35,471 bases of DNA from Longimicrobiales bacterium (GTDB lineage: Bacteria > Gemmatimonadota > Gemmatimonadetes > Longimicrobiales > RSA9), in NCBI GenBank assembly GCA_035461765.1, contig DATHUY010000115.1, forward strand, positions 1 to 35,471, written 5' to 3'. The notes under the pieces were generated by a model. That model worked only from the letters and a program-made list of their open reading frames with translations. It did not search any database and was not told the origin of the DNA. Shown one piece after another: positions 21,259 through 32,346 of this stretch (position 1 is its first letter; each line of letters opens with the position of its first letter). Made by a program: the position numbers and the translations under genes.

Positions 21259-23448
21259 CTACCGGATGAACAGCATTTCGCGGTAACGCGGCAGGGGCCA
21301 GAGGTCATCGGGCACCATCCGCTCGAGGCGGTCGCACGCGGTGCGCACCTCGAGCATGGCCGGGACGACGTTGTCGCGCATGTGGTATGCCTTTGAATGC
21401 ACGGTGTCGCCACCGAGCTCCGCGTTCTGCTCATCCAGGCGGCCGAGTGACTCGACCAGGTCGTTGAGCGTCTCGTTCAGATCATCGATCAGCTTCTGCA
21501 GGCCGCGGGCGCTGCTGCTCGTGGACGTCATCTCACGGAAGTTGTGGAATGCGTCCAGCAGATCATCGAGATAGCGCACGGCCGCAGGCAGCACGATCGT
21601 GCGCGCGATTTCGGCGGTCATTTCGCCCTCGATGTTGACGGTCTTGAAGTACTGATCGAAGAAGATCTCCGCGCGCGACTCCACCTCGCGCTCGGTCATG
21701 ATCTCGTACTTCTCGAACAGCTTCACGTTCTTCGCGTCGGTGAGCTTCGGCAGCGCATCGAGTGAAGTCTTCAGGTTCAGGAGTCCGCGCTTCTCCGCCT
21801 CGGCATGCCACTCCTCGCTGTAGCCGTCGCCGTTGAAGATGATGTGACGGATCTTCGCGAGCTCGCGGGCGAGGATACGGTGCAGGACTTCGGCGAAATC
21901 TCCCTTCTTCGCCAGCTCCTTCTCGATCATCGTACACAGCTCATCGATCGATTCCGCCACGATCGCGTTCAGAACAGTCGCCGGAAACGAGATGGACTGT
22001 GACGCTCCGAGCGCACGGAACTCGAATTTGTTGCCCGTGAACGCGAACGGCGATGTGCGGTTACGGTCGCCCGCGTGCTTCGGCAGCTTCGGCAGTACGC
22101 GGCTCCCGAGACCGAGCAGACCGCCCTGCTTGCTGCTCTTCGCCCGGCCGGCCTTCTCGACCTGATCGAATACGTCCGTCAACTGATCCCCGAGGAACAC
22201 CGAGATGATGGCCGGCGGCGCTTCGTTCGCGCCGAGGCGGTGATCGTTGCCTGCATACGCGACAGCCGCCCGTACCAGATCCTGGTGCCGCTCGACAGCG
22301 CGCAGAACCGCCGTGCAGAAGAACAGGAACTGACGATTCTCGTGCGGGCTGTCACCCGGTTCCAGCAGATTCTGCGATTCCGTGCTGAACGACCAGTTCA
22401 GATGCTTGCCGCTACCGTTGACTCCCGCGAACGGCTTCTCGTGCAGCAGCGCGACCAGCCCGTAGTTGCGCGCAGTCTTCCGCAGGACCGACATCAGCAG
22501 CTGCTGATGGTCGGCCGCTATGTTGGCGTTCTCGTAGATCGGCGCCACCTCGAACTGTCCGGGCGCGACCTCGTTGTGACGTGTCTTCACCGGCACGCCG
22601 AGGCGGTACAACTCGCGCTCGACATCCATCATGAACGACAGGATCCGCTCCGGAATCGCGCCGAAGTAGTGGTCCTCCAGCTCCTGGCCGCGCGGTGGCT
22701 TGGTTCCCACCAGCGTCCGTCCGGTCGCCACCATGTCCGGCCGGCGATAATAGAACTCCTGATCGACCAGGAAATACTCCTGCTCCGGACCGAGCGTCGT
22801 GTGGACGTGCTGCGGGTCAACGCCGAAGAGCTTCAGCGCGCGCCGCACCTGCACCTCGAGCGCGTGGTTCGACCGCAGCAGCGGGATCTTCGTGTCGAGA
22901 GCGTCACCGGCCCATGACGTGAACGCTGTGGGGATGGCCAGGTAGCAACCGCTCGGACCATCCACCAGGAACGCCGGGGATGTCGGATCCCAGGCCGTGT
23001 AGCCGCGCGCCTCGAACGTCGCTCGCAGACCTCCCGACGGGAACGACGATGCGTCCGGCTCCCCCTGTATCAGGTCCTTGCCGCTGAACTCCGCTACTGC
23101 GCCGCCGCCCACGTTCGGCGTGATGAACGAGTCGTGCTTCTCGGCCGTCTGCCCAGTCAGGGGATGGAACCAGTGCGTGAAATGCGTCGCGCCCCGCTCG
23201 ATCGCCCATTCCTTCATTGCCAGCGCCACCGCGTCCGCCACCGCACCATCCAGCTCGGCACCACGGTCGATCGTCTGCATCAGCGCCTTGTATGTCGCCT
23301 TCGGCAGTCGCGACTTCATCTCCTGCAGACCGAACGTGCTCTCGCCGAAGATCTGCTCGATGTCCATGCCGCGCGTGTTCCCTGCCGGCCGCGGCGTCCA
23401 CCCCGTCACGGCGTTCAGCGGATCGTAGCGCGTACCTGTGCTGGCCAT
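21259..23448 (-). CDS. glnN: Glutamine synthetase type III
   Basis: ATP-dependent ligation of ammonium to glutamate. The 729-aa length and motifs are those of GSIII, not GSI: P-S-G-G-L-R-A-T-F-E-A-R-G-Y near residue 135, K-T-R-H-N-E-V-A-P-G-Q-F-E near 285, A-D-H-Q-Q-L-L-M, N-G-S-G-K-H-L-N-W near 350, G-N-D-H-R-L-G-A-N-E-A-P-P-A, and N-K-F-E-F-R-A-L-G-A-S-Q-S near 495. The C-terminal 200 residues are the usual helical extension. ATG 23448 is chosen because GAGAGG lies about 6 nt upstream; ATG 23454 sits right against that site. It is divergent from a type I enzyme, so the cell has two synthetases under one control region. Confidence 0.96.
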   Translation of the reverse strand: MASTGTRYDPLNAVTGWTPRPAGNTRGMDIEQIFGESTFGLQEMKSRLPKATYKALMQTIDRGAELDGAVADAVALAMKEWAIERGATHFTHWFHPLTGQTAEKHDSFITPNVGGGAVAEFSGKDLIQGEPDASSFPSGGLRATFEARGYTAWDPTSPAFLVDGPSGCYLAIPTAFTSWAGDALDTKIPLLRSNHALEVQVRRALKLFGVDPQHVHTTLGPEQEYFLVDQEFYYRRPDMVATGRTLVGTKPPRGQELEDHYFGAIPERILSFMMDVERELYRLGVPVKTRHNEVAPGQFEVAPIYENANIAADHQQLLMSVLRKTARNYGLVALLHEKPFAGVNGSGKHLNWSFSTESQNLLEPGDSPHENRQFLFFCTAVLRAVERHQDLVRAAVAYAGNDHRLGANEAPPAIISVFLGDQLTDVFDQVEKAGRAKSSKQGGLLGLGSRVLPKLPKHAGDRNRTSPFAFTGNKFEFRALGASQSISFPATVLNAIVAESIDELCTMIEKELAKKGDFAEVLHRILARELAKIRHIIFNGDGYSEEWHAEAEKRGLLNLKTSLDALPKLTDAKNVKLFEKYEIMTEREVESRAEIFFDQYFKTVNIEGEMTAEIARTIVLPAAVRYLDDLLDAFHNFREMTSTSSSARGLQKLIDDLNETLNDLVESLGRLDEQNAELGGDTVHSKAYHMRDNVVPAMLEVRTACDRLERMVPDDLWPLPRYREMLFIR

Positions 23449-23591
23449 ACCCATCCTCTCTGGTTCAGGGACGCCCGAGCGCCCCCCGTGGCGGACCGGC
23501 CGCGCCGCGGAAGGCGACACGGAACGGCGGGAAGATAGTGGCGTCGGCGGGCCATGAGCAAGACCCCAGCGTCACGTCTCATATTGCCTAC

Positions 23592-23684
23592 TGTGAACTT
23601 TCCGTTCAACGCCTGGACACAAACCTCCGATTTCGTGAACGAGCGTGCAGCCGAATTGTGCCAATTGTGCACTTTCCGCTTGAC
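23592..23684. promoter_or_regulatory. Two 19-bp direct repeats in the glnN-glnA control region
   Basis: TGTGAACTTTCCGTTCAAC (23592-23610) and TGTGCACTTTCCGCTTGAC (23666-23684) match at 15 of 19 positions and start 74 bp apart. The first contains the dyad TGAAC-N5-GTTCA. The second overlaps the -35 of the glnA promoter. AATTGTGC is also tandemly repeated at about 23654-23670. These look like regulator sites; the regulator is unknown. Confidence 0.5.
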
Positions 23685-23709
23685 ACCATGTCCGACCAGA
23701 CCCTAACAT
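23680..23709 (+). promoter_or_regulatory. Likely glnA promoter
   Basis: TTGACA (23680-23685), an 18-nt spacer and TAACAT (23704-23709) resemble a sigma-70 promoter. Transcription would start near 23716, giving a leader of about 50 nt with a small CCCCGG/CCGGGG hairpin before the Shine-Dalgarno GGAG at 23755-23758. Confidence 0.6.
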
Positions 23710-23764
23710 CCCCTGCCCCGGTCGACCCGGGGGACGGACGTCGGACCCATTCGCGGAGATACAG

Positions 23765-25204
23765 ATGAGCCCCACGCGCGGGAGAAGGCCGGGCGCCGAG
23801 ATGACGGGACGGCCGGCAGCGGCCGTGCCGGAGCACAAGATCCGGCGACCGGCGGAGGATCGACGGTTCGGCGGGTTCGGGCGTCTGCAGCGGCCGGAGC
23901 TGTTGCGCCTGCTGGCGGAGTACAATGTGCGGTTCCTGCGACTGCAGTTCATTGACGTGATGGGTGTGCTGAAGAGCGTCGAAGTGCCGCGGAGCCAGTT
24001 CGAGAAGGCGCTGGATGGCGACATCATGTTCGACGGGTCGTCGATCGAGGGGTTCGTCCGGGTGGAGGAGTCTGACATGGTGCTGAAGCCGGACTTCGCG
24101 AGCTTCGTGGTGTTCCCGTGGAGCGACGCCGAGAACCGGGTGGCGCGGCTGATCTGCGATGTGCACCGCGCGGACGATGAGGTGTTCGAGGGCGATCCGC
24201 GGCGGGTGCTGGTACGGCAGATCGAAGCAGCGCGCAAGCTGGGATACGAGATGATGGCTGGGGTGGAGGCGGAGTTCTTCCTGTTCCACCGCTCGCCGGA
24301 GGGGTCGCCGACGCGAGTGACACACGACGCCGGGGGCTACTTCGATCTTGGCCCGGTGGACCTGGGCGAGGTTGCGCGGCGCGACATCGTGAATGTGCTG
24401 GAGCTGATGGGATTCGAGGTCGAGGCCGCGCATCACGAGGTCGCGCCGGGGCAGCACGAGGTGGATTTCCGCTATGCCGATGCACTGACCACGGCGGACC
24501 ATCTGGCAACCTTCAAGTTCGTGGTGCGCAATGTGGCATTCCAGCATGGCCTGCATGCGACCTTCATGCCGAAGCCCATTTACGGTCAGAACGGGTCGGG
24601 CATGCACACGCATCAGTCATTGTTCCGCGACGGAGCGAATGCGTTCTATGACGAATCGGACGAAGCGGGGATGTCGAAGGTGATGCGGTCGTATGCGGCG
24701 GGACTGCTGCGCCACGCGCGGGCGATGTGTGCCGTAACGAATCCGTTGGTGAACAGCTACAAGCGGCTGGTGCCCGGGTTCGAGGCGCCCGTGAACGTGG
24801 CGTGGTCGCACCAGAACCGCTCGCCGATGGTCCGCGTGCCTGCGCGGCGCGGGAAAGGCACGCGCCTGGAGCTGCGCATGCCGGACCCATCGGCGAACCC
24901 GTATCTCGCGCTGGCCATCCAGCTCGGCGCGGGGCTGGATGGCGTGCGGCGGAAGGCGGAGCCGCCGGAGCCGATCGACAAGAACATCTGGAAGCTGAGT
25001 GTGCGCGAGCGGCGGCGCTACAAGATCCAGGAGCTGCCGCGCGACCTCGGCGAGGCGATCACTCTGCTGAAGCGAAGCGGTTTCGTCCGCGACACGCTGG
25101 GCGAGCATGTCTTTCAGTACTTCGTCACCGCGAAGGAGCGCGAGTGGCAGGATTACATCGCGCAGGTGCACGACTGGGAGATCGAACGGTACCTGAATTA
25201 CTGA
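23765..25204 (+). CDS. glnA: Glutamine synthetase type I (alpha-like)
   Basis: Ligates ammonium to glutamate; forms dodecamers in this family. The 479-aa protein shows D-G-S-S-I-E-G-F (90-97), G-V-E-A-E-F-F-L-F (166-174), A-P-G-Q-H-E-V-D-F (227-235), N-G-S-G-M-H-T-H (276-283), N-P-x-V-N-S-Y-K-R-L (326-335) and R-L-E-L-R-M-P-D (367-374). The adenylylation loop of beta-type enzymes (N-L-Y-D-L-P) is N-I-W-K-L-S here, with Trp409 in place of the modified Tyr. So regulation by GlnE adenylylation is not expected. An N-terminal extension of about 35 basic residues precedes the catalytic fold; ATG 23801 would shorten it, but GGAG sits 6 nt before ATG 23765. Divergent from the type III enzyme. Confidence 0.96.
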   Translation: MSPTRGRRPGAEMTGRPAAAVPEHKIRRPAEDRRFGGFGRLQRPELLRLLAEYNVRFLRLQFIDVMGVLKSVEVPRSQFEKALDGDIMFDGSSIEGFVRVEESDMVLKPDFASFVVFPWSDAENRVARLICDVHRADDEVFEGDPRRVLVRQIEAARKLGYEMMAGVEAEFFLFHRSPEGSPTRVTHDAGGYFDLGPVDLGEVARRDIVNVLELMGFEVEAAHHEVAPGQHEVDFRYADALTTADHLATFKFVVRNVAFQHGLHATFMPKPIYGQNGSGMHTHQSLFRDGANAFYDESDEAGMSKVMRSYAAGLLRHARAMCAVTNPLVNSYKRLVPGFEAPVNVAWSHQNRSPMVRVPARRGKGTRLELRMPDPSANPYLALAIQLGAGLDGVRRKAEPPEPIDKNIWKLSVRERRRYKIQELPRDLGEAITLLKRSGFVRDTLGEHVFQYFVTAKEREWQDYIAQVHDWEIERYLNY

Positions 25205-25353: not shown

Positions 25354-26568
25354 TCACGTCAGTGGAAACTCGATCGTGACGGTGGTGCCGCTCTCGGTGG
25401 AATCGAAATCGACGGTGCCGTCGAGCTCGTCCTTGACGAGAGCGTTGACGATGGAGCGGCCGCTGCCGATGACCTTGTCGGGCTGTCTGGCGGAAGCGGA
25501 GCCGATGCCGTTGTCGGCGACCTGGAGGCGTGCACGGTCTCCGGTCCTCTCGAGCCGGATCACCAGGCTGCCGTGGCGGTTGCCGGCGATCTCGTGGTGA
25601 TCGGGGAATCCGTGCCGGAACGCATTGGTGATCAGCTCGTTGAGGGCGAGAGCGAGGGCGAAGCCGCGGCGCTCATCGAGGCTCCCGACATCGCCCTCGA
25701 GCGTGACATCGACACGCCGATCGGGGTCCCAGGCACTGCGCAGGCGCTGGGACAGCTTTTCCACGATCTCGCGCGCGGGGACGCCGCGATAGTTCTGGCG
25801 CCTAAGCGCATCATGCACGAGCAGGAATGAACGGAGCCGGTGCTCGAGGCTGGAAAGGGCCTCGTCGGAAGGTCGCGGCGGGCGCCGGTTCCGTTCCATG
25901 CTGAGCAGACCCATGATCACCGAGAGGTTGTTGCGTACCCGGTGGTCGAGCTCCTTGAGCAGGAGCGCGCGCTCTTCCGCATCGGCACGTGCGCGCTCGT
26001 AGAGCTCATAGTTCTGGTCGGCGAGGTCGCGGAGCTGCTGGTTGGCGCGCTTGAGCGCAACTTCGGCACGGTGCACTCGCAGGCGCGACTCGATGCGGGC
26101 GGTCAGCTCGGCCACGTGGAACGGCTTGGCGACGTAGTCGTCGGCGCCGGCCGCGAACGTTCGCACCACGTCGTCCGGAGCAGTACGGGCAGTGACCATG
26201 ATGATCGGCATCATCGCATCGTGCCGATCCTTGATCTCACGGCAGATGGCCCAGCCATCGCGGCCGGGGAGCATGGCGTCGAGCAGGATGAGGTCGACTT
26301 CCTTCAGGAATCCGAATGCCTCCTCGCCTCGCGCCACGGTCACGACGCGGAACCCCTGGGCCTCGAGCAGATCGGAGAACATCTGGCGCGCGAGGGGCTC
26401 GTCGTCGACGACGAGAATGGAGCTGACACGCGCGTCCGCCCCGGGCACGGGCTGGGGCTGCTCGGCAGGCCTGGCAACGCGCGTCGATGCACGCGCTGCG
26501 ACATTCTGCCTCTCAGCGGTCATCGCTGTATTCCGGTCATCATTGTGTCGATCGAAGGAAGAGAACAC
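25354..26568 (-). CDS. Receiver plus HWE/HisKA_2-type histidine kinase
   Basis: A 404-aa soluble signalling protein with a reversed hybrid layout. An N-terminal receiver (about 50-165; phosphoacceptor Asp97 in L-L-D-A-M-L-P, Lys148 in V-A-K-P-F) is followed by a linker coil. Next comes a HisKA_2-type phosphotransfer helix with His209 in L-D-H-R-V-R-N-N-L, then an ATPase domain (L-N-E-L-I-T-N-A-F-R-H-G, D-N-G-I-G). The H-R-V-K/R-N-N-L motif is typical of kinases that partner ANTAR regulators. GTG 26568 follows the ANTAR stop directly (AAGGAG-TAA-GTG), implying coupling but with short spacing; ATG 26523 is an alternative. No membrane segment. It probably phosphorylates the upstream ANTAR protein. 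Confidence 0.9.
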   Translation of the reverse strand: MFSSFDRHNDDRNTAMTAERQNVAARASTRVARPAEQPQPVPGADARVSSILVVDDEPLARQMFSDLLEAQGFRVVTVARGEEAFGFLKEVDLILLDAMLPGRDGWAICREIKDRHDAMMPIIMVTARTAPDDVVRTFAAGADDYVAKPFHVAELTARIESRLRVHRAEVALKRANQQLRDLADQNYELYERARADAEERALLLKELDHRVRNNLSVIMGLLSMERNRRPPRPSDEALSSLEHRLRSFLLVHDALRRQNYRGVPAREIVEKLSQRLRSAWDPDRRVDVTLEGDVGSLDERRGFALALALNELITNAFRHGFPDHHEIAGNRHGSLVIRLERTGDRARLQVADNGIGSASARQPDKVIGSGRSIVNALVKDELDGTVDFDSTESGTTVTIEFPLT

Positions 26569-27159
26569 TTACTCCTTCTGCAGTAATGGAGCGGCGAGGA
26601 GAATCTTGCGCGCGAGGTCGACCATTGGCGTATTCTTGTCCTGGCTGGTCTTCTGCAGGAAGCGGTACGCATCGCGTTCGCTGAGGCGGCGTGATTCCAT
26701 GAGCAGCCCCTTGGCTCGCTCGATGATCTTGCGCTCTTCGAGTCGCAGCTCGAGCATGTCGCGCTGTCGGCGTGCATCGAGCCACTCGTCGAAACGTGCA
26801 CGTGCGACGGCGATCGCCGGAGCGAGGTCATCGGGGTCGACCGGCTTTACCAGGTAGTGGAAGACCGGCGCCTTGATCGCCTCATCCACGGTGCGCGAGT
26901 CGCTGTAGGCGGACAGGATGATCATGGGAATGGGACGATCGGCCGCAATCTCGTGAGCGGCCTCCGGACCGGTCATCGCCGGCATGCGAATGTCGAGGAA
27001 TGCGAGATCGGGGCGTGTCTCACGCGCGAGCTCGACGGCTTCCCGCCCGTTGGCCGCGGTGGCCACGACCTGATGGCCGAGTGTCTCCAGCTGACTGGCG
27101 AGTGCGAGGTTGTGCAGCGACTCGTCGTCGGCGATCAGGACCCGGAGCGATTCACTCAT
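26569..27159 (-). CDS. ANTAR-domain response regulator (RNA antiterminator)
   Basis: A 196-aa protein with an N-terminal receiver (acidic pair Asp11-Asp12, phosphoacceptor Asp56, Lys105) and a C-terminal ANTAR domain (about 136-190; R-L-E-E-R-K-I-I-E-R-A-K-G-L-L-M...A-Y-R-F-L-Q-K). Known ANTAR proteins (AmiR, NasR, EutV) bind twin hairpins in mRNA leaders and prevent termination. ATG 27159 is preceded by GGAG 8 nt upstream. The kinase gene starts at its stop codon, forming a two-component pair. Its own leader contains an intrinsic terminator at 27208-27244. The neighbouring glutamine synthetases hint at nitrogen control, as for NasR, but that is inference. Confidence 0.92.
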   Translation of the reverse strand: MSESLRVLIADDESLHNLALASQLETLGHQVVATAANGREAVELARETRPDLAFLDIRMPAMTGPEAAHEIAADRPIPMIILSAYSDSRTVDEAIKAPVFHYLVKPVDPDDLAPAIAVARARFDEWLDARRQRDMLELRLEERKIIERAKGLLMESRRLSERDAYRFLQKTSQDKNTPMVDLARKILLAAPLLQKE

Positions 27160-27457: not shown

Positions 27458-29578
27458 ATGAAGACACTTCTCTCGTTCGCAGCCGTTGCAGGCTGGCTCA
27501 GCATACAGGCCGCGGTCGCGCCGGCGCTAACGCAGGCCGACGCGGCGGCTGAGGCGCCGCAGGCAGGCGGGGGCCCGAGTGCGTCCGCTACGGCGAGCGC
27601 CGCGGAAGCTGAAGCCATGCGGGCCGCGCTCGACCGCGATCTCCGGGAGATCATCGCGCGTCCCGGCTGGAGCGGCGATGAGTGGAGCGTGATGGTGCGG
27701 TCGCTCGACCGTGGCGACACGCTCTTCTCCTTCGGCGGCGACAGGCCGCTCGCGCCTGCATCGAACATGAAGCTCTTCACGACTGCGGCCGCGCTGTACT
27801 ACCTCGGGCCCGACTTCCGATACAACACGTTCCTGATGGCGACCGGGCCGATCCGTGACGGCGTGCTGGAGGGCGACCTGGTGCTTTACGGCACAGGCGA
27901 TCCCACGTTCAGCAGCCGGTTCGGCGACAACCTGCGGGTATGGAAGGCCTTTGCCGACACACTGCAGGCGATGGGCGTGCGTGAGATCCGCGGCAGCATC
28001 ATGGGCGACGGCTCCTATTTCACGGGGCCCGGCGCGGGCGAGGGCTGGCAGCAGGGCTACATGAATGCGTCGTATGCCGCCTCCGCGGGCGCACTGAGCT
28101 TCGCGGAGAACATCGCGATGCTGCAGATCGCACCCGGGGCGGAAGACGGCTGGCGGCCGGAAGTGCGGCTGGTCCCGGGCGGCGAGGGTATCGCCATCGT
28201 GAACCAGGCCACGACACGTGCCGGCGGGTCGACCCGGATCAGTGCGACACGCATGGCTTATGACGGCCCGATCGTGGTGCGCGGCCAGATCGGACGTGGC
28301 GCGAAGCCGGTACTGCGATCGGTTCCGGTATCGGACCCGGCGCGCCTGGCCGCCGCAACGTTCCGTGCGGTGCTGGTGGATCGGCAGATCACGATACAGG
28401 GCGGCCTCGGATCCGCGCATTCGAGTGAGGAGTCGCCGGTCACGGGACGGTCGGTGTTTGCGCCGGCACTCGACTCGCAGGCGCCGATACGGGTTCTGGC
28501 CGTACACACGTCGGAGCCGATCCTCGACATCCTGACGATCATCAACAAGCGCAGCCATAACCTGATGGCGGAGCAGGTGCTGCGGACAGTTGGACGGGTG
28601 GCGGTCGGCGAGGGCAGCGTCGCAGGGGGACGCCGCGCGATCGAGCACATGCTCGCACAGGAAGGTCATCCTGCCGACATCGCCGTGTATGACGGCTCGG
28701 GGCTGTCCGTGCTGAACCGGGCGAGCGCGGGAGACTTCATCGATCTGCTGGCGCTGATGGCGGCCTCGCCCATGTGGCCCTACTACTGGGAGACGCTGCC
28801 GGAGGCGGGAGCATCGGACGGCCTGCGGCGAATGTACCGGACGGGCGCCGAAGGCAACCTGCGAGCGAAGACGGGCACCATTGACCGCGTGTCCGCTCTT
28901 TCGGGTTACGTGTCGTCGGCGAACGGCGAGCGACTGGCGTTCAGCATCATCAGCAACAATGTCCCGTCGACGTGGATGGCCAAGCGTGTCGAGGACGCGA
29001 TTGGCGGACGCCTCGCGGAGTTCGAGCGGCCGCTGGATGCGCCGGCCCGGCGAGTCGACCCGGGCGAGCGGGCAGCAGGGGGTACATCCGAGGATGGCGT
29101 CGCGGCACCCGCACCGGTACCGACGCAGCCGCGGGAGCCCGCGGCGACTCAGACGCATCGAATCGGACGCGGCGAGACCCTGAGCCATCTTGCGCGCCGA
29201 TATGGTGTGAGCGTCGCGGACATCGAGCGTGCGAACCCCGGGCTGAACCCGCGTCGTGTGCAGGTCGGCCAGCTGGTCCGCATCCCGACCCGGGACGGCC
29301 CGGTTCCGACACCGGACCAGACGACGGGAACGCCGCCCGCGAGCAACGCGCCCGCGGCAGGTCAGCCTGCCACGGGACAGCCGGCGGCCGCGCAGCCGCC
29401 CCGGTCAGACCCGGCTGCCGCACAGCCGGCGGCCGCGCGCACGCATACGATACGGAGCGGTGACACGCTGGACGGAATCTCGAAGCGCTACAGTACCACG
29501 GTGAGCGCGCTGCAGGCGGCGAATCCCGGGCTGAACCCGCGGCGCCTGATCCCGGGGAAGACGATTCGTATCCCGTAA
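27458..29578 (+). CDS. dacB: D-Ala-D-Ala carboxypeptidase/endopeptidase (PBP4, S13) with two LysM domains
   Basis: Periplasmic penicillin-binding protein that trims or opens peptidoglycan peptide bonds; 706 aa. After a signal peptide (about 1-27) the S13 domain shows the three active-site motifs: S-N-M-K (Ser102, Lys105), S-H-N in N-K-R-S-H-N-L-M, and K-T-G in R-A-K-T-G-T. The S13 part ends near residue 530. Two LysM modules follow (H-R-I-G-R-G-E-T-L-S-H-L-A-R-R-Y-G and H-T-I-R-S-G-D-T-L-D-G-I-S-K-R-Y), separated by a Pro/Ala/Gln/Thr-rich linker. E. coli PBP4 has no LysM, so this is a fused glycan-tethered form. No good Shine-Dalgarno is near ATG 27458; GGAGGA lies about 38 nt upstream. Confidence 0.92.
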   Translation: MKTLLSFAAVAGWLSIQAAVAPALTQADAAAEAPQAGGGPSASATASAAEAEAMRAALDRDLREIIARPGWSGDEWSVMVRSLDRGDTLFSFGGDRPLAPASNMKLFTTAAALYYLGPDFRYNTFLMATGPIRDGVLEGDLVLYGTGDPTFSSRFGDNLRVWKAFADTLQAMGVREIRGSIMGDGSYFTGPGAGEGWQQGYMNASYAASAGALSFAENIAMLQIAPGAEDGWRPEVRLVPGGEGIAIVNQATTRAGGSTRISATRMAYDGPIVVRGQIGRGAKPVLRSVPVSDPARLAAATFRAVLVDRQITIQGGLGSAHSSEESPVTGRSVFAPALDSQAPIRVLAVHTSEPILDILTIINKRSHNLMAEQVLRTVGRVAVGEGSVAGGRRAIEHMLAQEGHPADIAVYDGSGLSVLNRASAGDFIDLLALMAASPMWPYYWETLPEAGASDGLRRMYRTGAEGNLRAKTGTIDRVSALSGYVSSANGERLAFSIISNNVPSTWMAKRVEDAIGGRLAEFERPLDAPARRVDPGERAAGGTSEDGVAAPAPVPTQPREPAATQTHRIGRGETLSHLARRYGVSVADIERANPGLNPRRVQVGQLVRIPTRDGPVPTPDQTTGTPPASNAPAAGQPATGQPAAAQPPRSDPAAAQPAAARTHTIRSGDTLDGISKRYSTTVSALQAANPGLNPRRLIPGKTIRIP

Positions 29579-29667: not shown

Positions 29668-30726
29668 CTAGTCTGCGAGCAGCCTGCGTGCGGAGACGAA
29701 CATGGCGGCGAGCCGATGCTCGAGCGGCTCGGAGCCGGCGAGGTCGTTGATGTGCACGCCGCCGTTGCCGAGTGCGGAATGGATGATGAGTGGACCGCCG
29801 AGCGAGATGGCCACGTGGCTCACGCGGGCCTCGGGCTCGGCGAAGAAGAGGAGATCTCCGGGCCGCAGCTCGCTCAGCTCGAGACCGAGCGCTACGCCGG
29901 TGCCCGCGCGCTCCTGGAGATCGGAGTCGCGAGGGAGGGCGATCCCGTGCATCCACATGACTGCCTGCGTGAATCCCGAGCAGTCGACGCCATTCAGCGT
30001 GACGCCGCCCCACAGGTAGGGTGCGCCATACCAGCGCCGGGCGGTGCGTGCGATGCTCTCACCGCGGTGCGGGAACCAGTCACTCAGGCGATCGACATCG
30101 ACGACATCGCCGTTGGCCACCATGCCGCTGCGGCCGTCCGGAAGATGATAGGCACCCGAGTGCCGCGTCAGGCGTGCGCCCCAGGGCAGGCGTGCGATAA
30201 TGCGGCCATCGGCGTCGATGAGCTCTGCGCCGAGAGATACGACCGACTCGCCATTGCTGCCCCGCTCCCAGGCGAAGGCCCAGTCGTCGTCGCCGCCCTG
30301 GAGATATCCCTGATAGGCCCAGCCGACATAGCCGTCCTCGCCGCGGATGCGATACCAATCGTCGGCGTGGGCGAGAAGCTCGACGCGCATGCCCATGACC
30401 AGCTGAGAGATCTGCGGGGCCGGCAGCCGCGGCTCGGCATAAACCGGAGCCACTGCGGAGCGGACCAGGGCGTGGCGGGCGGCGCCGAGTGATGCGTCGG
30501 GCAGCCGCATGACGTTGTCGACGGCGGTGAGTCCCTGATCTCGCAGCTGCGCGACCAGCGCGGTCACAGCGGCGGGATGCGTGGACTGACCGCGCAGCAC
30601 GACCGTCGCACCGTCCTGCTGGGCGACGACATCGAAGACCCCGGACCGGAAGTCAGGGACGAACTGGCGTCGGACTTCTTCGATCGCGTCGTCGAGCGCA
30701 CCGCCGGTATCGCTGCGCGACGTCAT
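29668..30726 (-). CDS. SH3-NlpC/P60 peptidase, YkfC-like, no signal peptide
   Basis: A 352-aa cysteine peptidase of the C40 family. An N-terminal BON-like stretch (about 11-75) is followed by two SH3-like regions (about 90-143 and 155-213) and the NlpC/P60 domain (about 222-350). The catalytic residues appear to be Cys249 in G-V-D-C-S-G-F, His304 in V-S-H-V-A-I and His316 in I-I-H-S-A. The domain order matches YkfC, which cleaves gamma-D-glutamyl bonds of murein peptides during recycling. No signal peptide or membrane helix precedes the fold, consistent with a cytosolic recycling role. It is the last gene of an ATGA-coupled operon with two small related proteins. The BON assignment is tentative. 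Confidence 0.9.
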   Translation of the reverse strand: MTSRSDTGGALDDAIEEVRRQFVPDFRSGVFDVVAQQDGATVVLRGQSTHPAAVTALVAQLRDQGLTAVDNVMRLPDASLGAARHALVRSAVAPVYAEPRLPAPQISQLVMGMRVELLAHADDWYRIRGEDGYVGWAYQGYLQGGDDDWAFAWERGSNGESVVSLGAELIDADGRIIARLPWGARLTRHSGAYHLPDGRSGMVANGDVVDVDRLSDWFPHRGESIARTARRWYGAPYLWGGVTLNGVDCSGFTQAVMWMHGIALPRDSDLQERAGTGVALGLELSELRPGDLLFFAEPEARVSHVAISLGGPLIIHSALGNGGVHINDLAGSEPLEHRLAAMFVSARRLLAD

Positions 30727-31031
30727 CCGGCGTTCGCGTTCGTCCGTTCGCGCTGTGACCCCGGTTGTGCGCCAGTCGCGGGCGAGGCGCCATGCTCGAG
30801 GAGCGCGCGCTCACGCACGATGTGGAGCCGGCGATGCAGCTCGAAGTCGGACATCGTGAGCAGGGTCCGCTCCGCGGTGGCGCGCGACTGCCAGCGCACT
30901 TCCGGCACAGGCAGCACCGCGCCGTCGGGGCCCTCGAAGACGAGGTACCAGCGCGTATGGTGTCGCGGCGTATCCTCCTCGCGCGCGCTGGCGTTCCAGC
31001 TGGCGCCACTGTCGTCCATGAACGTCTTCAT
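30723..31031 (-). CDS. Small F-x-D-x-x-G-x-x-W family protein, copy B
   Basis: A 102-aa protein I cannot assign to a named family. It starts M-K-T-F-M-D-D-S-G-A-S-W, continues R-W-Y-L-V-F-E-G-P-D-G-A-V-L-P-V-P, and has a helical segment L-L-T-M-S-D-F-E-L-H-R-R-L. The last 25 residues are polar and probably disordered. It shares an N-terminal F-x-D-x-x-G-x-x-W pattern and a C-terminal M-x-D-x-x-L-x-x-x-L pattern with the gene just upstream. It overlaps both neighbours by ATGA, so three proteins are made from one coupled message. No signal peptide, so it is probably cytoplasmic. The fold looks like a small strand-rich domain plus helix; function unknown. Confidence 0.85.
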   Translation of the reverse strand: MKTFMDDSGASWNASAREEDTPRHHTRWYLVFEGPDGAVLPVPEVRWQSRATAERTLLTMSDFELHRRLHIVRERALLEHGASPATGAQPGSQRERTNANAG

Positions 31032-31264
31032 TGCATTCCTTCCTGTCGCGTGGTAGACCTGTCGAGCAGCGCCTGGAGGGCTGCGTCATTCATGTCGTCG
31101 AGCTCGCGCACGGCCGCGTCCTGTGCGACCGCCTGCAGCGGAGCCTGCCGGGCGGCCAGTCCGGACGAAACGGGCGGGACGAAAAGGGCGACGCTCGCGC
31201 CCCACGATTCGCGTCCCAGCACTACGTCCCACGCCACACCGGCTCGATCCTGAAATTGTCGCAT
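31028..31264 (-). CDS. Small F-x-D-x-x-G-x-x-W family protein, copy A
   Basis: A 78-aa protein starting M-R-Q-F-Q-D-R-A-G-V-A-W-D-V, with a short strand A-L-F-V-P-P, an Ala/Gln-rich stretch and a terminal helix L-D-D-M-N-D-A-A-L-Q-A-L-L-D. It is the first gene of the operon. ATG 31264 is chosen over a 92-residue longer frame because GAGG lies 5 nt before it and the homology to copies B and C begins exactly there. Its stop overlaps copy B as ATGA. It diverges from the MscS-like gene with 71 bp between the two starts. Function unknown. Confidence 0.83.
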   Translation of the reverse strand: MRQFQDRAGVAWDVVLGRESWGASVALFVPPVSSGLAARQAPLQAVAQDAAVRELDDMNDAALQALLDRSTTRQEGMQ

Positions 31265-31335
31265 ACCAACCTCACCCTTGCGCGGCGGCACACGAACCCA
31301 CAGCGTTGCAGGCCGCATGCAATGATACCGGAGCG

Positions 31336-32100
31336 ATGCAGGACATGTACGATGCGCTGACGGACCGTCTCGAAGAAGGCATCTACCAGATCGTCGCGTT
31401 CCTGCCGCGTCTGGCGGCGGCCCTTGGCATCCTGATGGTCGGTCTGGCCATCGCGAAAATGGTCGAGCGCGGCACCGATCTGGCCCTGCACCGCATCGGC
31501 TTCGACCGCTGGATGCAGGAGGGCGGCGTGACCGAGGCACTGGAGCGCGCCGGCACGACGCTGGACCCGTCGTCCGTGATCGCGAAGCTCGTCTTCTGGA
31601 CGATGATGCTCCTGGTGATCCTGCTCTCCGCCAACGCGCTCGGCATCACCGCCGTGAGCGTGCTGTTCGCGGAACTGCTCGCATACGTGCCGAACGTCAT
31701 AGCCGCCGTGATGGTCCTCGTCCTGGGCATCCTGCTCGGCGAATTCATCAAGGACCTCGTACTGGCATCGGCCGGCGGGCTGCCGGGCGGCTTCAATCTG
31801 GCGCGCGCAGCCAAGGCCGCGATCATCCTGCTCGCCACGTTCATGGCGCTCGACCAGCTCGACATCGCGCAGGACATCGTGCTCGTGTTCTTCATCGCGG
31901 TCGTGGGCGCCGCCGCCCTCGCAGCCGGCATCGCCTTCGGTCTCGGCGGCCGAGAGGTCGCGGCCCAGATCGCGCGCGAATGGTTCGAGAGCCATCGTGC
32001 TGCATCGCGCCGTCGCCCCCGCCCGGAGACACCTCCACCGCCGCATACACCAGCGGCGCCGCCGTTTCCGACAGCGCCGCCCGGCGACGTGCGCGAGTAG
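31336..32100 (+). CDS. Small MscS/CmpX-like membrane protein
   Basis: A 254-aa inner-membrane protein with about five predicted transmembrane helices: near residues 16-36 (A-A-A-L-G-I-L-M-V-G-L-A), 80-98, 108-135 (V-P-N-V-I-A-A-V-M-V-L-V-L-G-I-L-L-G), 155-172 and 180-205 (A-A-L-A-A-G-I-A-F-G-L-G-G-R). The last ends in a Gly-rich G-L-G-G-R-E-V-A, resembling the MscS pore helix. The layout fits the conserved-TM-helix (CmpX-like) branch, lacking the large cytoplasmic vestibule of full MscS. The tail is Pro-rich. GGAG lies 2 nt before ATG 31336, which is close. Divergent from the small-protein/NlpC operon, so envelope stress is a possible shared theme (inference). Confidence 0.85.
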   Translation: MQDMYDALTDRLEEGIYQIVAFLPRLAAALGILMVGLAIAKMVERGTDLALHRIGFDRWMQEGGVTEALERAGTTLDPSSVIAKLVFWTMMLLVILLSANALGITAVSVLFAELLAYVPNVIAAVMVLVLGILLGEFIKDLVLASAGGLPGGFNLARAAKAAIILLATFMALDQLDIAQDIVLVFFIAVVGAAALAAGIAFGLGGREVAAQIAREWFESHRAASRRRPRPETPPPPHTPAAPPFPTAPPGDVRE

Positions 32101-32106
32101 CCTGGA

Positions 32107-32346
32107 CTAGTCCCCCCAGCGCATCCGGATCGCGATGCCCTCGTCGAGAGCCGTCTGCAGATCCTCCGGCGTCGCCGTCGAAAGCCAGCCGTGCGGGCGG
32201 TACACCAGCCGCTGTGCCGCGGCGCCCGGCCCGCTCTCGAACAGGATCGCTTCCCAGCCCGTTCGCGACGATACGGCGCCGTCGTCCGTCCTGTCGTGCA
32301 GACGGGCCATCCAGCTCGTGCCGTCCGCTACCTTGAACACCCTCAT
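32107..32346 (-). CDS. Small F-x-x-x-x-G-x-x-W family protein, copy C
   Basis: A 79-aa protein starting M-R-V-F-K-V-A-D-G-T-S-W-M-A-R-L, continuing G-W-E-A-I-L-F-E-S and R-L-V-Y-R-P-H-G-W-L, with a final helix T-P-E-D-L-Q-T-A-L-D-E-G. The pattern matches copies A and B at the N-terminus and final helix, although the middle differs. GGAG lies 6 nt before the ATG. It is alone, converging with the MscS-like gene 6 bp away, and preceded by a cruciform-like repeat. No signal peptide. Function unknown; three relatives within 1.6 kb suggest local duplication. Confidence 0.83.
   Translation of the reverse strand: MRVFKVADGTSWMARLHDRTDDGAVSSRTGWEAILFESGPGAAAQRLVYRPHGWLSTATPEDLQTALDEGIAIRMRWGD

Follow-up and report, generated by a model that had tools for sequence, protein, structure and literature searches.

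A YkfC-type peptidase gene in an operon with two members of an unnamed small-protein superfamily of Gemmatimonadota

The stretch of DNA analysed here, referred to as the window, is one whole contig of 35,471 bases. On its minus strand, three overlapping genes encode two small proteins, P1 and P2, and a peptidase that, judged by its residues, is of the YkfC type (gamma-D-glutamyl-diamino acid endopeptidase). We consider it likely that this operon joins a YkfC-type enzyme to two members of a superfamily found across the phylum, and that the link to the peptidase is specific to one lineage rather than the mark of an obligate unit. The peptidase is of a known type; what is new is the superfamily of small proteins. 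The genes and overlaps discussed below are as follows.

31028-31264, minus strand: P1, an acidic small protein of 78 aa (predicted beta4-alpha2; AlphaFold2 mean pLDDT 86.4)
30723-31031, minus strand: P2, a small protein of 102 aa and paralog of P1 (AlphaFold2 mean pLDDT 84.7)
29668-30726, minus strand: YkfC-type peptidase of 352 aa (from Pfam, PDB comparison and residue alignment)
31028-31031, minus strand: ATGA shared by the P1 stop codon and the P2 start codon; the congener G147 has this overlap too
30723-30726, minus strand: ATGA shared by the P2 stop codon and the peptidase start codon; G147 and G051 have this overlap too
32107-32346, minus strand: P3, a distant paralog of P1 and P2, 79 aa, outside the operon
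31345-32100, plus strand: divergent membrane protein with MscS-type conserved transmembrane helices (PF05552) only
27458-29578, plus strand: convergent dacB/PBP4-type D-Ala-D-Ala carboxypeptidase with C-terminal LysM-like repeats (by inspection)

An earlier note on this DNA described three minus-strand genes joined by ATGA overlaps, and the gene coordinates and both overlaps are indeed present in the sequence. In the rest of the window's taxonomic family (labelled f1), the order of P1, P2 and peptidase on one strand is kept, with short gaps between the genes. A scan for promoters and terminators found none. The divergent gene had been described as MscS/CmpX-like; its divergent placement recurs in 8 of 9 f1 loci, but the MscS identity is less firm, as Pfam detects the PF05552 transmembrane helices and no MscS core domain, and the NCBIfam msc model gives 92.1 bits, below its cut-off of 100. 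Elsewhere in the window, inspection finds two adjoining response-regulator-like genes on the minus strand (25354-27159), the first hybrid-like with a histidine-kinase-type C-terminus and the second with an ANTAR-like end, and two distinct glutamine-synthetase-like genes (about 729 and 467 aa) that lie side by side in opposite directions (21259-25204).

Peptidase identity and murein recycling

Pfam places an SH3b domain at residues 93-143 of the peptidase and an NlpC/P60 domain at 234-333, and a region between them aligns to the second SH3b domain of 3pvq. The nearest PDB structures are dipeptidyl-peptidase VI (3pvq, 3npf) and YkfC from B. cereus (3h41), and the window peptidase is like them in having SH3b followed by NlpC/P60 and a catalytic Cys-His-His. 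The resemblance to YkfC proposed earlier extends to the residues that define the subfamily. Among 43 homologs, the catalytic triad (C249, H304 and H316) is invariant, and so are Y237, W239, D248 and S250, at the positions of BcYkfC Tyr226, Trp228, Asp237 and Ser239. R266 and D267 of the motif P-R-D-S, which was aligned to 3h41 and 3pvq, are found in 43/43 (D267 is the equivalent of BcYkfC Asp256), as is Y133 in the GYVGW of the first SH3b domain, aligned to DYTGW of 3pvq and the probable counterpart of BcYkfC Tyr118. The sole YkfC-defining position that varies is that of Ser257, which is Ser or Ala. A conserved Asp256 and SH3b Tyr118 mark enzymes requiring a free L-Ala at the N-terminus, and further YkfC residues holding gamma-D-Glu have been listed (PMC2954226). 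The Tyr of the first SH3b domain and the Asp of P-R-D-S, which recognise the free L-Ala, are thus shared with the YkfC subfamily.

The peptidase was also said to have no export signal, and by inspection neither its N-terminus nor the related N-termini carry a hydrophobic signal. What sets it apart from the YkfC structures is an additional conserved segment of about 85 residues at the N-terminus (approximately 1-85), which is conserved in several families of the class, missing in others and matched by no Pfam family. A BON-like domain had been proposed for this segment and is rejected for want of profile support: the Pfam BON model does not match up to E 10, and hhalign gives 4% to a neighbouring BON-like protein.

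Given the YkfC residues, the missing export signal and the presence in the genome of LdcA-type and epimerase relatives, the best reading of the peptidase is likely cytosolic recycling of murein tripeptide. The enzyme would bind the imported tripeptide through its free L-Ala amine, using Tyr133 and Asp267, and would cut L-Ala-gamma-D-Glu from meso-diaminopimelate, a step for which the residues and the genome content argue strongly. The recycling would be completed by two enzymes with genes elsewhere, a carboxypeptidase of the LdcA type and a dipeptide-epimerase relative. The window's genome does encode both, an S66 LdcA-type gene on contig C134 and an enolase-superfamily dipeptide-epimerase relative on contig C165, each unlinked to the operon and each with NCBIfam scores below cut-off; the best score of the epimerase relative is for the N-acetyl-D-Glu racemase DgcA, again below that model's cut-off. 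Of the two functions first suggested for the locus, murein-peptide recycling is therefore a good fit for the peptidase, and an envelope-stress role finds no support.

The surroundings of the gene differ from those of known YkfC systems. The window peptidase has no ykfA or ykfB neighbour, and it is predicted to be co-transcribed with the small proteins or, in relatives, with a gene that resembles class V aminotransferases. YkfC of B. subtilis is signal-less like the window enzyme, and the ykfABC operon shares the same predicted biochemical step, the partner functions being unlinked in the window's genome. The enzyme of Chlamydia trachomatis, from a different phylum, is also signal-less and cytosolic and frees mDAP from murein tripeptide, and small-protein partners are not mentioned in the part of that article used here (PMC9928106).

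The small proteins P1, P2 and P3

The proposed kinship of P1, P2 and P3 is upheld by mutual profile homology. With hhalign, P1 and P2 match at 97.9% (E 4e-13, 72 columns), and P3, when widened to four rows, matches P2 and P1 at about 95% each (E 2-3e-8). Each protein is recovered in the window when its own subfamily is left out of the profile (P1 at E 4.5e-6, P2 at E 2.3e-7 and P3 at E 1.1e-5), while everything else in this control, which comprised the window frames and reversed decoys, scores E 0.1 or worse. P1 follows the pattern M-R-x-F-x-D...G-x-x-W...GRESWG...F-V-P. Structure prediction with AlphaFold2 for the small proteins alone gives P1 and P2 the same order of elements (E-E-E-E-H-H), and we are confident of this shared predicted fold of four strands followed by two helices. 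In the P2 model, the beta4-alpha2 part spans residues 1-81 and is followed by a low-confidence tail; pLDDT exceeds 90 for most of residues 1-80.

Foldseek searches of the PDB with P1 and P2 (best E 0.41) and of viral models with P2 (best E 0.055) give no significant match, and a sequence search of the PDB with both proteins returns matches at chance level only. Nothing in Pfam, NCBIfam or PHROGs scores above cut-off against P1, P2 or P3, and a literature search on their family found no paper that matched all its terms. No named family resembles the three proteins; they belong to an unnamed superfamily, seen here only in Gemmatimonadota.

P1 is negatively charged in every case (mean net charge -4.3), P2 is basic on average (mean +2.4, range -2 to +8) with an invariant R-R in its last helix, and the small proteins have no signal peptide. 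P1 and P2 would be co-translated, soluble beta4-alpha2 paralogs, and their most likely role is that of small accessory proteins that bind one another or some other macromolecule. Their opposite charges and translational coupling make a P1-P2 pair, possibly a heterodimer, plausible; P2 mostly occurs without P1.

Distribution, neighbourhoods and possible roles

The distribution of these genes was surveyed in 298 Gemmatimonadota genomes, in which the sister family of f1 is labelled f2 and a third family f3. A superfamily profile of 45 rows matches 223 of these genomes, with up to 11 copies in one genome. The subfamilies are narrower: P2 occurs in 85/298 genomes, all from one order, and P1 in 30/298, and of the 25 genomes in that order with both, 20 have them side by side. 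The peptidase is encoded in 134/298 and is mostly single-copy across a class. Scanning 84,980 species with the P1 motif alone (W[DE]VxxGRESW, from a 15-row P1 alignment) finds 17 loci, all in Gemmatimonadota. The window's genome has at least six superfamily matches including P1, P2 and P3. Further paralogs lie at C153:25209-25445, C47:18816-19058 and C127:5524-5736, with a weak match (E 0.003) at C91:32517-32741. P3, earlier noted as a third relative nearby, is one of these several paralogs and is adjacent only in the window and G284; it is not part of the operon.

The functions of neighbouring genes in relatives were assigned mostly by inspection. P3-like proteins are followed in f3 by a DinG-type helicase whose start is RadC-like, and in f7 usually by citrate synthase (loci with one or the other are L136, L175 and L195-L200; L177-L194), and other superfamily members stand beside threonine synthase, Lon, QueD-type and further genes. 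P1 overlaps a TlpA-type gene in two f3 loci, P1-P2 usually end against dacB in f2, and dacB adjoins P2 or the peptidase in several families. With a superfamily that is phylum-wide and lies beside so many unrelated enzymes, the set of P1, P2 and peptidase is probably not a dedicated new system. The same neighbours could be taken to mean that each subfamily is the dedicated partner of a different cytosolic enzyme, among them the YkfC peptidase, RNase D, the DinG-type helicase and citrate synthase, a reading that we regard as rather doubtful.

A narrower proposal, which we think unlikely, is that P1 and P2 are regulatory or assembly partners dedicated to the peptidase, for example by binding it to gate its cytosolic activity. 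The ATGA coupling in the window and G147 speaks for this, as does the f1 arrangement, where 9/9 genomes have P2 close to the peptidase and on its strand (P1 is present in 7) and where G051, which lacks P1 and the membrane gene, still keeps P2 and peptidase together with their overlap. However, f1 is the only family in the survey with P2 beside the peptidase. In f2, P2 is present in 67 of 73 genomes (next to P1 in 13), and an orthologous peptidase is found in none of the 73 at E 1e-20; in f3, each of the 8 genomes with both genes carries P2 on one contig and the peptidase on another; over 100 further Gemmatimonadota genomes have the peptidase and no P2; and superfamily members adjoin many other enzymes. 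The earlier claim that the three products are probably needed together therefore holds as linkage within f1 and is not supported beyond it, and the expected synteny of P2 with an NlpC/P60 gene is likewise confined to f1. The neighbourhood is also largely collinear between f1 and f2 in any case, the MscS-like neighbour and the convergent dacB being part of this general collinearity, so shared gene order in these families says little about joint function. Since the linkage in f1 is kept while peptidases outside the genus fall to about 48-59% identity, and since the overlap in G051 persists without P1, a functional link of P2 and peptidase within f1 is possible. Overall, the association would be a lineage-specific shared transcript in one family and not an obligate functional unit.

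Across f1, the order is the membrane gene, diverging from P1, P2 and peptidase, which converge on dacB, and in some variants P2 is separated from the peptidase by a small zinc-ribbon-like gene or by a class V aminotransferase-like gene. The zinc-ribbon-like protein (95 aa, CPRC...CRSC, L095:11350-11637) is placed in this way in G006 and G084, and the L095 copy has no Pfam match; a similar protein is read at L097. The aminotransferase-like PLP gene is found at six loci in f1-f3 (L099, L100, L101, L107, L128 and L129; PF00266 at E 3e-40 for L099). It follows P1-P2 at L107 and is upstream of the YkfC-type peptidase in 5 of the six loci, often with an ATGA overlap. This overlap with the peptidase gene is seen in members of both f1 and f3, so the aminotransferase-like gene, and not P1 or P2, is the peptidase partner common to two families of the order. 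Its product could supply an epimerase or lyase step. The window operon has no orthologous copy, and the best match in its own genome has 32% identity. In f4 and f5, two distant families, a DmpA-like aminopeptidase gene, identified by inspection, adjoins the peptidase on the same strand (L131:c81 and L132:c81).

It is also improbable, in our view, that P1 and P2 bind nucleic acid, specifically RNA, in a role unrelated to murein recycling, with the basic P2 as the RNA-facing member. This idea draws on the average charge of P2 and its invariant R-R, and on six f3 loci (L114, L115, L118, L119, L121 and L123) in which P2 directly follows a same-strand RNase D-like gene, with gaps of 23-88 bp; in a seventh, L124, P2 follows 511 bp after the RNase D-like gene with one small gene between. 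Double-stranded-RNA-binding domains recur among the weak, non-significant structural matches, and a gap of 12 bp separates one P1 from a YhbY-like gene. Against it, neither structural search reached significance, P1 is acidic and many superfamily members lie beside metabolic genes; the position of P2 after RNase D and the weak domain matches offer a lead but do not amount to evidence.

Among type VI secretion effectors are NlpC/P60 enzymes that lack a signal and have small partner genes (Tse1/Tsi1, Tae4/Tai4). By that precedent, the window enzyme could be an exported effector and the small proteins its immunity proteins or antitoxins, but we set these readings aside as very improbable, since small proteins without a signal peptide could not protect the periplasm, the peptidase is for the most part a single ortholog per genome with YkfC-specific substrate residues, the window showed no secretion genes, and the small proteins and the enzyme are not co-inherited.

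We thus prefer to see the operon as a YkfC-type enzyme transcribed in one family together with two members of a wider superfamily. For the peptidase, the likely recycling role would make Gemmatimonadota a further phylum in which murein is recycled in the cytosol by a YkfC-type enzyme; four other phyla with YkfC-type enzymes were named in a 2010 survey (PMC2954226). The unnamed superfamily is present in about 75% of the sampled Gemmatimonadota genomes, with up to 11 paralogs per genome, and would let annotators assign to a single family many proteins now called 'hypothetical'. Clear cases for experiment are P2 next to RNase D and, next to the DinG-type helicase, the P3-like protein, and if the enzyme-partner reading were true, the superfamily would amount to a phylum-specific toolkit of partner proteins in Gemmatimonadota.
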